Source: Aphanocapsa sp. GSE-SYN-MK-11-07L
GTDB lineage: Bacteria > Cyanobacteriota > Cyanobacteriia > Thermosynechococcales > Thermosynechococcaceae
Assembly (NCBI GenBank): GCA_019359715.1
Contig: JAHHGS010000011.1
Span: forward strand, 1 to 64,000
DNA: 64,000 nucleotides
Direction: 5' to 3'
Positions 57,022 to 60,966 of the stretch are shown here, piece after piece. Within the stretch, counting starts at the first letter, position 1. Every line of letters starts with the position of its first letter. Below the pieces are notes generated by a model that saw only the letters and a program-made list of their open reading frames with translations, was not told the origin of the DNA and ran no database searches. Both the position numbers and the translations under genes were made by a program.

Positions 57022-57777
57022 ATGGCCCCTCATTCATCGGTAACGTCTCTGCCGGATCATACGCAGCTACCGGATTCTGATAGTGTGTTTGTGAAAAACT
57101 TTCAGGAGCATCCTCAGAGCATTCTGCTGACTGAGTCAATCTGGCCGACCTTACAGCGCTTGCATCCAGAGGGGCAGTTTTGTATTGGTCAAGACTCCGG
57201 TATTTATTGGCGAATGACTGATCCGCCCGAACGGGGTGCCGAAGCGCCAGATTGGTTTTATGTGGCGAATGTGCCGCCGACCTTAGATGGGCAAATCCGC
57301 CGCTCTTACGTCATGTGGCAGGAGTTTATTGCTCCCCTGATTATTTTGGAATTTTTTTCTGGCAATGGTTCGGAAGAACGAGATCCAACGTCGTGGAAAG
57401 GCAAGTTCTGGATTTACGAGCAGGTAATTCGCCCCGCTTTTTACGGCATTTATGAGGTGCAGCAAGGGACGGTTGAAGTCTATCGTCATGTTGAAAACCA
57501 TTTTGAGCCAGTTGCGGCCAATCAGCAGGGGCGGTATCCGATTCCTCAGCTTGGGGTAGAACTGGGGATTTGGTCTGGCCTTTACAAAAACGTCAATTTA
57601 CCTTGGTTGCGCTGGTGGAATGACACAGGGCATCTATTGTTGAACGCCGAAGAGCGGGCTGAACAAGAGCGACAGCGAGCTGATTGGGCAGAGCAACAAG
57701 CAGAGCAGGAGCGGCAGCGGGCCGATCGCCTGGCAGAAAAACTTCGGCAGTGCGGAGTTGACCCGGATGGGGAATAG
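57022..57777 (+). CDS. Uma2-family (DUF820) protein with coiled-coil tail
   Basis: 251 residues. The Uma2 domain covers about 45-205 (PPERGAEAPDWFYVANV, LIILEFFSGNGSEERD, KFWIYEQVIRPAFYGIYE). The C-terminus is a repeating helix (RAEQERQRADWAEQQAEQER) typical of one Uma2 subgroup. Its end overlaps the kinase gene start by 11 bases, so it is translationally linked to a signalling pair, an unusual place for a Uma2 gene. Confidence 0.9.
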   Translation: MAPHSSVTSLPDHTQLPDSDSVFVKNFQEHPQSILLTESIWPTLQRLHPEGQFCIGQDSGIYWRMTDPPERGAEAPDWFYVANVPPTLDGQIRRSYVMWQEFIAPLIILEFFSGNGSEERDPTSWKGKFWIYEQVIRPAFYGIYEVQQGTVEVYRHVENHFEPVAANQQGRYPIPQLGVELGIWSGLYKNVNLPWLRWWNDTGHLLLNAEERAEQERQRADWAEQQAEQERQRADRLAEKLRQCGVDPDGE

Positions 57778-59518
57778 TGACGACAGCGACTGGCAGCGGC
57801 TGCTAGAACGAGAGCGTTTATTAAGGACAATTAGCGATCGGATCCGAAAATCGCTGGAACTATCGGAAATCCTCAATACGACGGTCAAAGAAGTTAGAGA
57901 CTTGTTGCAGGTTGATCGGGTAATGATTTACCAATTCCAGCCTGACCTGAGTGGAGTCGTGATTGCTGAATCAGTAGCTGATGGCTGGAGCAGCCTGCAA
58001 GGACAAGCAATTCAAGACAGCTATTTTTTTGGTGAACAGTGTTTTGATCCTTATAGCAACGGATATGTTCAGAATACGACCGATATTTATACCTCTGGAC
58101 TATCGCAGTGCTACATCGACTTGCAGGCGGAATGGCAGGTGCGAGCAAACTTAGTGATTCCAATTTTCCAGGGGAATAGCACACGGGTTTGGGGGTTACT
58201 GGCAGCCCAACACTGCGCTGCTGCTCGCGGCTGGCAAGCGGAAGAAATTGACTTACTGCAACAGATTGCCAGTCAAGTTAGCATTGCGCTGACCCAAGGT
58301 GAATTGCTGCGGCAAACCCAGCAGCAAGCCCAGAAAGAACGCCTGCTCAACTGGGTGATTCGCGCTGTGCGGCAGTCGCTAGATTTACAAACTATCTTTA
58401 CGACGGCTGCTTCGGAAATTGGCAGTTTCCTTCATGCCAGTCGAGTTGAAATTGTCCAGTATTTGCCGGAACAGCAAGTGTGGCAACATATTGCTGAGTA
58501 TCGGCAAAGCTCAGACTTACCGATCGCCCTGGGGCTAGAAATTGTTGATGCCAATAATCCAATTGCAGCACAGCTCAAACAGGGGCAGGTTGTACAAGTT
58601 GCCAGTCAAGACCTGAGCGACCCCATTCATCAAAATTTAGCCCAGACCTTACCGGGAAAATGGCTGTTGATGCCGCTCCAAGTGGCCGAGAACCTCTGGG
58701 GTAGCCTCAGTCTCTGCCGCCTAACAGCAACTTGGACAAGCTGGGAAGTGGAGCTAGCTCAGACCTTAGCGGCCCAGTTGGCGATCGCGATTCAACAGGC
58801 GGCGGCCCTAGAACAAGCCAAGGCCGAGCTAGAGCATCGACAGCACGTTGAGCAACGGCTGAGAAGCTCTCTGAAAGAAAAAGAAGTGCTGCTGCAAGAA
58901 GTTCACCATCGGGTCAAAAACAATCTACAAGTGATTTACAGCTTGCTCTCGATTCAAGCAGATATGGTAACTGACCTCCAAGTCCGAGCCGCCCTGGAAG
59001 ACAGCCAGAACCGCGTGATGGCGATGGCGATGGTGCATCAAAATCTCTATCAATCCAATAACTTTGCCAGGATCAACTTCTCAGAGTATGTTCGTTCTCT
59101 TACCCTGCATTTGTTTGGAATGTTCCAGATCCGCACCGATCAAATTTCTCTCAAAATCAAGAGCAGTCAAGATTTAACCGTCCCGTTGGAACAAGCTGTT
59201 CCCTGTGGGTTAATTCTGAATGAACTGATTACCAATGCGATTAAACACGGGTTTCGCCAGGGCGATCGGCAAGGAGAACTCATAGTTAGCCTCACACCAT
59301 CAGATCACCCGGCCCAGATTATTTTGAGTGTGGTCAATAATGGCGCACCTTTACCTGCAAATTTTGATTTAGCAACCAGCCAATCAATGGGATTGCAATT
59401 AGTCCAACTTTTGTCTGAACAGCTTGCTGGCACACTCTCAGTCAGGGGAGGCGAGACAACTTGCTTCAGTCTCAGCTTCGAGCCAGGATCTGAGGACAGC
59501 GATCTTAAACGGTTGTGA
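57767..59518 (+). CDS. sensor histidine kinase with cyanobacteriochrome-like GAF, second GAF and HisKA_2 core
   Basis: 583 residues from the ATG at 57767. The first GAF (about 32-178) has phytochrome-type features: VDRVMIYQFQPDLSG, VIAESVADGW, VRANLVIPIF and LAAQHCAAARGWQAEEIDLL. A Cys (115) is at the bilin-attachment position, but the usual following His is Tyr (QCYIDL). A second Cys (92) lies in EQCF, where blue/violet cyanobacteriochromes have DxCF. GAF 2 spans about 200-345. The kinase is HisKA_2 type with EVHHRVKNNLQ near 378 and an HATPase_c with LNELITNAIKHGF and GLQLVQLL. Light sensing is inferred, not shown; a general ligand GAF is the alternative. Confidence 0.85.
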   Translation: MGNSDDSDWQRLLERERLLRTISDRIRKSLELSEILNTTVKEVRDLLQVDRVMIYQFQPDLSGVVIAESVADGWSSLQGQAIQDSYFFGEQCFDPYSNGYVQNTTDIYTSGLSQCYIDLQAEWQVRANLVIPIFQGNSTRVWGLLAAQHCAAARGWQAEEIDLLQQIASQVSIALTQGELLRQTQQQAQKERLLNWVIRAVRQSLDLQTIFTTAASEIGSFLHASRVEIVQYLPEQQVWQHIAEYRQSSDLPIALGLEIVDANNPIAAQLKQGQVVQVASQDLSDPIHQNLAQTLPGKWLLMPLQVAENLWGSLSLCRLTATWTSWEVELAQTLAAQLAIAIQQAAALEQAKAELEHRQHVEQRLRSSLKEKEVLLQEVHHRVKNNLQVIYSLLSIQADMVTDLQVRAALEDSQNRVMAMAMVHQNLYQSNNFARINFSEYVRSLTLHLFGMFQIRTDQISLKIKSSQDLTVPLEQAVPCGLILNELITNAIKHGFRQGDRQGELIVSLTPSDHPAQIILSVVNNGAPLPANFDLATSQSMGLQLVQLLSEQLAGTLSVRGGETTCFSLSFEPGSEDSDLKRL

Positions 59519-59529
59519 GAGGTGTACTA

Positions 59530-59564
59530 ATTTTGAAAGCTTTGCAGTGCAAAGTTTTCAAAAT
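59530..59564. terminator. near-perfect 17-bp inverted repeat between kinase and regulator
   Basis: ATTTTGAAAGCTTTGCA (59530-59546) and TGCAAAGTTTTCAAAAT (59548-59564) are complementary over 17 positions except one G-T, separated by one base. It begins 12 bases after the kinase stop. No T-run follows. It could be an attenuator or mRNA end between kinase and regulator, or a protein-binding palindrome for the regulator's promoter. Confidence 0.55.
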
Positions 59565-59691
59565 CTGACCTGTATTTTATCCAAGTTAGAGTTGCTATAT
59601 TTAGATAGCGATCGCCTTACAAATTGTTCTTAACTTCAGGAGAATTCAGGCTGATATAGTTGCTTTCTAGCGACTTGATCAAAGCAACGTC

Positions 59692-60966
59692 ATGATCAAA
59701 GTTTTAGTAGTTGAAGATGAAAAGGTTGTTGCTTGGGATATTCAGCGTGACCTCCAGCGGACTGGCTATACTGTTGTCGCCATCGTTTCTTCTGCTGAGG
59801 CTGCCCTGCATGCGGCTGATCAGCATCGTCCCGACTTAGTGCTGATGGATATTCATTTAGCTGGCCCAGAAGATGGCATCTCGGCGGCTCAGTCGATCGC
59901 AGTTTGCTGCAATATTCCAGTCATTTTCCTGACTGCCTATGTCGATGAATCAACGGTGCAGCGAGCCGCTGCGACCAGTCCCTATAGCTATTTGGTCAAG
60001 CCCTTTCGAGCCGATCAACTTCATACAGCCATTCAGGTTGCCCTCCAGCGTCATCGCTTAGAACAAACCGATCAGCGTGAACAGCAGCAAATCGCCAACA
60101 CCTTACGCAGTTTGGGAGACCCCACCATTACTACCAACCTGCAAGGCAAAATTACGTTTATCAATGCTGCTGCGGCTGCGCTGACGGGTTGGCAAGCCCA
60201 TGAGGCCCTAGAGCAACCGATTGAGCAGGTTTTTCGACTGATTGACAGCGAGACGCAAGCGGCAATTGCTAACCCATTGCAGCAAGCAATTCAAAATGAT
60301 ACATTGGTGCGGCTTTCTGACCATTGTCTTTTGATTGATCGCACGGGTCAAACTCACTGTATTAGTGACAGTGCAACCCCAATTAAAAATGAGCAAGGTG
60401 AAACGATCGGGGGTGTGATTGTTTTTCAAGATATTAGCGATCGCAAGCACCGAGAAGATCAGCTCCGGCAAGAAGCCTTTTGTGACCTGCTGACGAGCTT
60501 GCCTAATCGCCGCCTATTTTTAGATCGTTTGGGTCAGTCTTTTAGAACGTTTTGTCGCACTAACCAACTGTTTGCGGTGATTTTTATTGACCTTGATGAC
60601 TTTAAAACAGTCAATGATACTTTGGGGCATTTAGCCGGCGATCAGTTGCTGTTAGAAGCGGGACAGCGATTTGCCAAATGCCTGCGCTCCCTGGACACCG
60701 TGGCCCGTTTGGGGGGGGATGAGTTTGGCTTCTTGTTGCAGGCGATCGAGGGTCAGCAAGATGCCGAACGGTGTGGTGATCGCCTGTTGGCGCAGTTGGC
60801 CGAGCCTTTTATCCTCGATCAGCAGTCAGTGCAAGTGAAGGCCAGCATTGGGATTACGATCGCCGATCGGAGCTTTCAGCAAGCCGAAGACCTATTGCGA
60901 GCAGCCGATCTGGCCATGTATAAAATCAAGCAAGACGGCGGCAACAGTTTTCAAATTTCACCCTAG
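59692..60966 (+). CDS. response regulator with PAS and GGDEF domains (diguanylate cyclase)
   Basis: 424 residues. REC domain 1-120 with phospho-acceptor Asp53 (LVLMDIHLAG) and Lys103 in LVKPF. A PAS domain (about 132-250: ITTNLQGKITFINAA and GVIVFQDISDRK). GGDEF domain 262-424 with intact active site RLGGDEF (GGDEF 341-345) and an I-site RSLD (332-335) five residues before, meaning product inhibition is likely. It makes cyclic di-GMP when phosphorylated. Follows the histidine kinase gene by 173 bases and is its likely partner. Confidence 0.94.
   Translation: MIKVLVVEDEKVVAWDIQRDLQRTGYTVVAIVSSAEAALHAADQHRPDLVLMDIHLAGPEDGISAAQSIAVCCNIPVIFLTAYVDESTVQRAAATSPYSYLVKPFRADQLHTAIQVALQRHRLEQTDQREQQQIANTLRSLGDPTITTNLQGKITFINAAAAALTGWQAHEALEQPIEQVFRLIDSETQAAIANPLQQAIQNDTLVRLSDHCLLIDRTGQTHCISDSATPIKNEQGETIGGVIVFQDISDRKHREDQLRQEAFCDLLTSLPNRRLFLDRLGQSFRTFCRTNQLFAVIFIDLDDFKTVNDTLGHLAGDQLLLEAGQRFAKCLRSLDTVARLGGDEFGFLLQAIEGQQDAERCGDRLLAQLAEPFILDQQSVQVKASIGITIADRSFQQAEDLLRAADLAMYKIKQDGGNSFQISP

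Follow-up and report, generated by a model that had tools for sequence, protein, structure and literature searches.

A cyanobacteriochrome-type histidine kinase beside a GGDEF response regulator in Aphanocapsa sp.: a probable light-to-c-di-GMP pair with a variant chromophore pocket

How might a photosensory kinase with unusual cysteines in its chromophore pocket pass a light signal to cyclic dimeric guanosine monophosphate (c-di-GMP) metabolism? The question is raised by three same-strand genes in a 64,000-nucleotide stretch of Aphanocapsa sp. GSE-SYN-MK-11-07L (GenBank assembly GCA_019359715.1; contig JAHHGS010000011.1, positions 1 to 64,000; hereafter, the window), which encode a Uma2-family protein, a histidine kinase with two GAF domains (GAF1 and GAF2) and a REC-PAS-GGDEF response regulator. 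Colour tuning in cyanobacteriochromes (CBCRs) is understood largely through the sites at which cysteines contact the bilin. A preliminary description of the locus joined all three genes in one unit, with GAF1 as a dual-cysteine CBCR-like sensor. From the analysis reported here, the kinase and the regulator probably form a two-component pair that relays light to c-di-GMP, and the CBCR pocket of the sensor is a variant one.

Family and fold of GAF1

By its sequence matches and predicted structure, GAF1 is a member of the CBCR family. Its best sequence matches in the PDB are 6oap (162 bits) and the NpR3784-derived miRFP670nano (135 bits), with further matches to NpR6012g4, RcaE, and TePixJ. An AlphaFold2 model, built from a five-sequence alignment, has a mean predicted local distance difference test score (pLDDT) of 84.6; bilin-bound CBCRs head the Foldseek results for this model (6oap, TMq 0.89; also AnPixJ and TePixJ), and the fold is nearest to the bilin-binding GAF domains of CBCRs and phytochromes. 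The family assignment in the preliminary description therefore holds on alignment with CBCR GAF domains, the best matches being bilin-bound rather than only bilin-independent GAFs.

The canonical bilin-ligating cysteine at the start of helix α4 (Cys115; conserved at this position in 130 of 134 related GAF domains) and the pocket aspartate (Asp84; 124 of 134) are both retained. Four genes for ferredoxin-dependent bilin reductases, two of which are adjacent, are present in the genome of this organism (C99:11064-12496, C121:17574-18236, C148:19236-19895), so bilins should be available in the cell. From its sequence and model, GAF1 is a putative bilin-binding, light-sensing domain.

Pocket cysteines and the lineage of GAF1

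The segments QCYIDL (with Cys115-Tyr116), EQCF (with Cys92), and VRANLVIPIF are each present in the kinase, as first described; what changes is the place given to Cys92. It had been read as the second cysteine of the DxCF motif, but alignments assign that motif to D84-S85-Y86-F87, with Tyr86 where the second cysteine is usual, as in NpR3784 and 6oap. Cys92 lies six residues C-terminal of this position, in helix α3 of the AlphaFold2 model (mean pLDDT 91 over residues 90–99, kinase numbering), and an ungapped alignment with relatives that carry DPCL-x4-C rules out its placement at DxCF. The pocket is thus a variant one, as had been proposed, but by virtue of Tyr86 and a cysteine in α3 rather than a DxCF cysteine. 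The tyrosine after Cys115 is no oddity, since Cys-Tyr occurs in 44 of the 134 related GAFs; the same His-to-Tyr change was engineered in miRFP670nano (H87Y), where the tyrosine stacks on the chromophore (PMC6336887).

GAF1 departs from the defining features of three CBCR classes. Its DSYF has no second cysteine of the kind found in the D-x-C-F motif of the DXCF lineage; it reads I82-Q-D84-S-Y-F87 where the expanded red/green (XRG) lineage is defined by WxDxxL (PMC11284453); and, at one residue longer than most of its relatives, it has no large loop insertion of the kind that holds the second cysteine of insert-Cys CBCRs.

When GAF1-GAF2 and an alignment built from close GAF1 domains served as search queries, they brought out a group of proteins in other families (f16, f33, and f25) in which a GAF1-type domain is followed by a domain ~46–50% identical to GAF2 of the window. 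Most members read D-P-C-L-x4-C-[LI], then P-[YF], and carry Cys-Tyr or Cys-Phe at the canonical site, giving three cysteines at the same spacing. The window shares the cysteine six residues after the DxC position and the GAF2-type domain that follows; it keeps two of the three cysteines, having Tyr86 in place of the DxCL cysteine. Loci L206 and L207 lack both the DxCL and the canonical cysteine and retain the Cys92 equivalent, and L217 lacks the Cys92 equivalent. These two α3-Cys-only, CBCR-like GAFs (L206, ~1498-2025, and L207; genomes G253 and G348) are found in proteins of ~1340 aa.

An initial tree, with the motif columns included, gave no placement for the window. The tree built without these columns grouped it with L147, L149, L206, L211-L217, L220, and L221 at modest support (90/62), 6 of these 13 members being close orthologues from one genus. 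A cysteine at exactly the spacing of Cys92 is present in 11 of the 13 and in L140, whereas 7 of the 83 other GAFs have any cysteine in that stretch. Cys92 is thus not noise; it is conserved within a related tandem-GAF group. The two cysteines singled out in the preliminary description are both conserved, Cys115 broadly and Cys92 within this one group.

The PDB scores had prompted a simple assignment of GAF1 to the NpR3784 lineage of red/green CBCRs without a DxCF cysteine, with Cys92 incidental. The rank of miRFP670nano as second-best match and the tyrosine shared with NpR3784 and 6oap agree with that assignment, and an approximately unbiased (AU) test does not reject placement of the window with the NpR3784 clade (p 0.103). 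The best tree does not uphold it, however: NpR3784 and 6oap fall in a separate supported clade (99/88), away from the window and the Cys92 group, and GAF1 has Ile82 rather than the lineage-typical Val at the Trp position (PMC11284453). We regard this reading, NpR3784-lineage membership with an incidental Cys92, as rather unlikely, and any placement of GAF1 in a lineage as tentative.

Could Cys92 instead be a second bilin-ligating cysteine, one that approaches from α3, forms a reversible thioether, and makes one state of the photocycle strongly blue-shifted? Its location within α3 of the model and its conserved spacing are consistent with such a role, as is the precedent of AM1_1186g2, which has a working second cysteine in α3 (PMC6628166); Cys92 is four residues ahead of Tyr96 and would face the same side of the helix. 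Against this, when published residue numbers are counted, it is Tyr96 and not Cys92 that the AM1_1186g2 cysteine appears to match. Moreover, most of the group also has the DxCL cysteine, so that a third cysteine would be unneeded for ligation there, and the persistence of the Cys92 equivalent without a canonical cysteine in L206 and L207 suggests that this residue serves some purpose apart from ligating C10. Ligation by Cys92 is possible, but we give it the smaller part of our credence.

A bolder proposal, which we hold only tentatively and think improbable, places GAF1, as a derived member, in a CBCR lineage not yet described, one that has three cysteines (DxCL, α3 Cys, and Cys-Tyr/Phe) and in which the α3 cysteine is photochemically active. 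If so, the window, having lost the DxCL cysteine, would reveal the effect of the α3 cysteine alone. Neither a third CBCR cysteine nor this arrangement was found described in the literature searched, although many CBCR papers fell outside that search and the result is no proof of novelty. A conserved extra cysteine in α3, together with natural members lacking one or both of the others, provides a ready series for probing that position.

Conversely, GAF1 might be a degenerate CBCR domain that has lost bilin binding and now detects another signal or serves a structural purpose. The loss of the DxCF cysteine fits this explanation, as does the maintenance of the domain in L206 and L207 without both known bilin cysteines; the window, however, retains Cys115 and Asp84 with an undamaged flanking motif, and the GAF1 model is close to bilin-bound structures, which makes degeneration doubtful.

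The kinase-regulator pair and its neighbourhood

By sequence, the kinase has the phospho-acceptor His381 and the ATPase domain of a HisKA_2 histidine kinase. Its NNGAP G1 box might have marked the enzyme as inactive, but this reading was dismissed, as NNG or NDG is found in several other HisKA_2 kinases, including the genome's own. Pfam identifies Response_reg, PAS, and GGDEF domains in the regulator, in which Asp53 and Lys103 of REC, GGDEF (341–345), and the I-site RxxD (RSLD, 332–335) are all intact, the last two as first described; these are the features of a diguanylate cyclase response regulator. Feature coordinates are collected in Table 1; those of the three genes, and the 11-base overlap between the Uma2 and kinase genes, were re-derived as originally given.

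Table 1. Coordinates of genes, domains, and motifs at the locus, in window numbering.
Feature	Position	Strand	Basis
Uma2-family gene, C-terminal coiled coil	57022..57777	+	Pfam PF05685
GAF-GAF-HisKA_2-HATPase histidine kinase, 583 aa	57767..59518	+	ATG 57767
GAF1 (residues 31-175), CBCR-like, putative bilin-binding	57857..58291	+	Pfam GAF, PDB matches, AlphaFold2/Foldseek
D84-S85-Y86-F87 at the DxCF position, with Tyr for the second Cys	58016..58027	+	Alignments
Cys92, first turn of helix α3 (residues 90-97), conserved in group of tandem-GAF relatives	58040..58042	+	
Cys115-Tyr116, canonical bilin-ligating Cys position, then Tyr	58109..58114	+	Related GAFs
GAF2 (residues 205-343; Pfam GAF_2), no canonical Cys; homologous to GAFs of other cyanobacterial signalling proteins	58379..58795	+	
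HisKA_2 (residues 378-451), phospho-acceptor His381 (HRVKNN)	58898..59119	+	Pfam PF07568, 99.3 bits; alignment
HATPase_c; N-box NELITNA intact; G1 box of NNG type	59210..59479	+	
Palindrome with 17-nt arms and 1-nt loop, in the kinase-regulator gap	59530..59564	+	
REC-PAS-GGDEF response regulator, 424 residues, putative diguanylate cyclase, no EAL	59692..60966	+	

The main evidence that the two proteins of the window work together is the recurrence of their pairing: in five other genomes (G030, G040, G085, G023, and G006), a HisKA_2 kinase is encoded directly upstream of a full-length homologue of the regulator. The three such kinases that were scanned have PAS or ETR1_N (ethylene-receptor-like) sensors, so the pair recurs with exchangeable input. 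The relay from light to c-di-GMP envisaged in the preliminary description is plausible, given the CBCR-like GAF1 and this recurrence, once its dual-cysteine DxCF component is set aside. The locus would then represent a light-sensor variant added to a recurring kinase-to-c-di-GMP pair whose input domain is swapped between lineages.

Among the loci surveyed, L133:5208-8442 (G006) and L134:4007-7954 (G040) each encode an ETR1_N HisKA_2 kinase, followed immediately by a REC-PAS-GGDEF regulator of ~700 aa. L137:5382-9002 (G107) encodes a REC-PAS-PAS-GAF1-GAF2-GAF-HisKA hybrid kinase that unites counterparts of both window proteins in one polypeptide; its REC-PAS part is 49% like the window regulator and its GAF1-GAF2 part 48% like the window kinase.

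The explanation that we favour for the locus as a whole, with somewhat better than even confidence, is a light-responsive CBCR HisKA_2 kinase that signals to the adjacent REC-PAS-GGDEF regulator. The analysis shows the domains, motifs, family, and fold, and the recurring linkage of kinase and regulator genes; we infer a chain that runs from bilin binding and colours to phosphotransfer and the direction of output. The kinase would be soluble, and GAF1 would bind a bilin, most likely phycocyanobilin, covalently through Cys115; photoconversion would alter kinase output. Because tyrosine replaces the DxCF cysteine, no blue-absorbing dark-state adduct of the DXCF type is expected, and the dark state would be red- or orange-absorbing unless Cys92 reaches the bilin from α3. 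GAF2 would act as a bilin-free spacer or signal-transfer domain between GAF1 and the kinase core. After autophosphorylation, His381 would hand its phosphate to Asp53 in the neighbouring response regulator; the diguanylate cyclase activity of that protein, subject to product inhibition at the I-site, would change as a result.

Several observations temper this explanation. The 116 relatives searched yielded no kinase orthologue at E≤1e-100, so the exact three-gene arrangement has been seen once; a search of genome contigs with the whole kinase returned mainly relatives of its HisKA_2 half only. In the same genome, the closest paralogue of the regulator (55%) is an orphan with unrelated genes on either side, and two regulator homologues (L107 and L111) have no such kinase within ~1.4 kb of upstream flank. 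Covalent bilin binding can be lost in the Cys92 group, since L206 and L207 lack the canonical cysteine, and no studied CBCR was found in which the combination of Tyr86 and Tyr116 had been tested. Finally, the 173 bases between kinase and regulator and the palindrome within them make a single transcript uncertain and separate transcripts possible. The palindrome (ATTTTGAAAGCTTTGCA/TGCAAAGTTTTCAAAAT) is a small dispersed intergenic repeat, with several diverged copies (79–88% identity) on other contigs of the same genome; no promoter- or terminator-like site in the region rose above chance. The orphan paralogue itself (C76:50572-51837; L129:6573-7853) is a REC-PAS-GGDEF protein whose gene is flanked by an IF-2B-family gene and a release-factor gene.

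The place of the first gene was also reconsidered. Its product has a Uma2 domain (Pfam PF05685; 56.5 bits, cut-off 27) with the PD...E...K residues of the family, which are nuclease-like by sequence. Were Uma2, kinase, and regulator a single functional unit, Uma2 nuclease activity might come under light or kinase control; the 11-base overlap would permit translational coupling. The surroundings can be read in the same direction: nine family members have the metallo-β-lactamase (MBL)-fold gene found upstream, and in seven of the nine pabA is next to it, as in the window, but nothing downstream of the MBL-fold gene in those nine matches the genes of the window, so the Uma2-kinase-regulator block is a lineage-specific feature of this site. 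However, 35 of 116 related genomes carry close homologues of this Uma2 protein, with five copies in the organism's own genome, and neither a kinase nor a regulator of the REC-PAS-GGDEF type was found beside any of the 12 homologues examined (11 loci with flanks of ~1.5 kb and one own-genome paralogue with 10 kb). The Uma2 linkage is therefore not conserved in the loci examined, and a three-part unit is very improbable; Uma2 is probably an incidental neighbour from a dispersed multicopy family. Of the unit first described, the three genes on one strand stand, set against the gap and recurrent palindrome that separate kinase from regulator.

Relation to known systems

The closest solved GAF domain belongs to PPHK, a dual-sensor histidine kinase (PDB 6oap/6oaq/6ob8; ~46% identity and the TMq given above, its CBCR-like GAF alone being compared). 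Like the window protein, PPHK is a photosensory histidine kinase with tyrosine at the DxCF cysteine position; unlike it, PPHK has Cys-His instead of Cys-Tyr and no equivalent of Cys92. The NpR3784-lineage GAF in miRFP670nano (PDB 6mgh) likewise has tyrosine in place of the DxCF cysteine, and the Cys-Tyr of the window corresponds to its engineered H87Y (PMC6336887), but the lineage has Val at position 82, lacks Cys92, and occupies another clade. AM1_1186g2, a red/blue dual-Cys CBCR, resembles GAF1 in its extra α3 cysteine (PMC6628166); it belongs to the XRG lineage, and its cysteine, by residue-number counting, would fall at Tyr96, one turn later. DXCF CBCRs such as TePixJ (PDB 3vv4/4glq) share the GAF fold, Asp84, and the canonical cysteine, and differ in possessing the second, DxCF cysteine where the window has Tyr86.

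For the locus as a whole, the nearest counterparts are the cyanobacterial pairs of a HisKA_2 kinase with a REC-PAS-GGDEF(-EAL) regulator (e.g., the ETR1_N pairs of G006 and G040). These have other sensor domains and gene gaps that do not exceed a few tens of bases, versus 173 in the window, and the regulator that was scanned (L132) has an EAL domain that the window's lacks; in common with the window, they have a kinase of this type immediately ahead of a regulator of this type.

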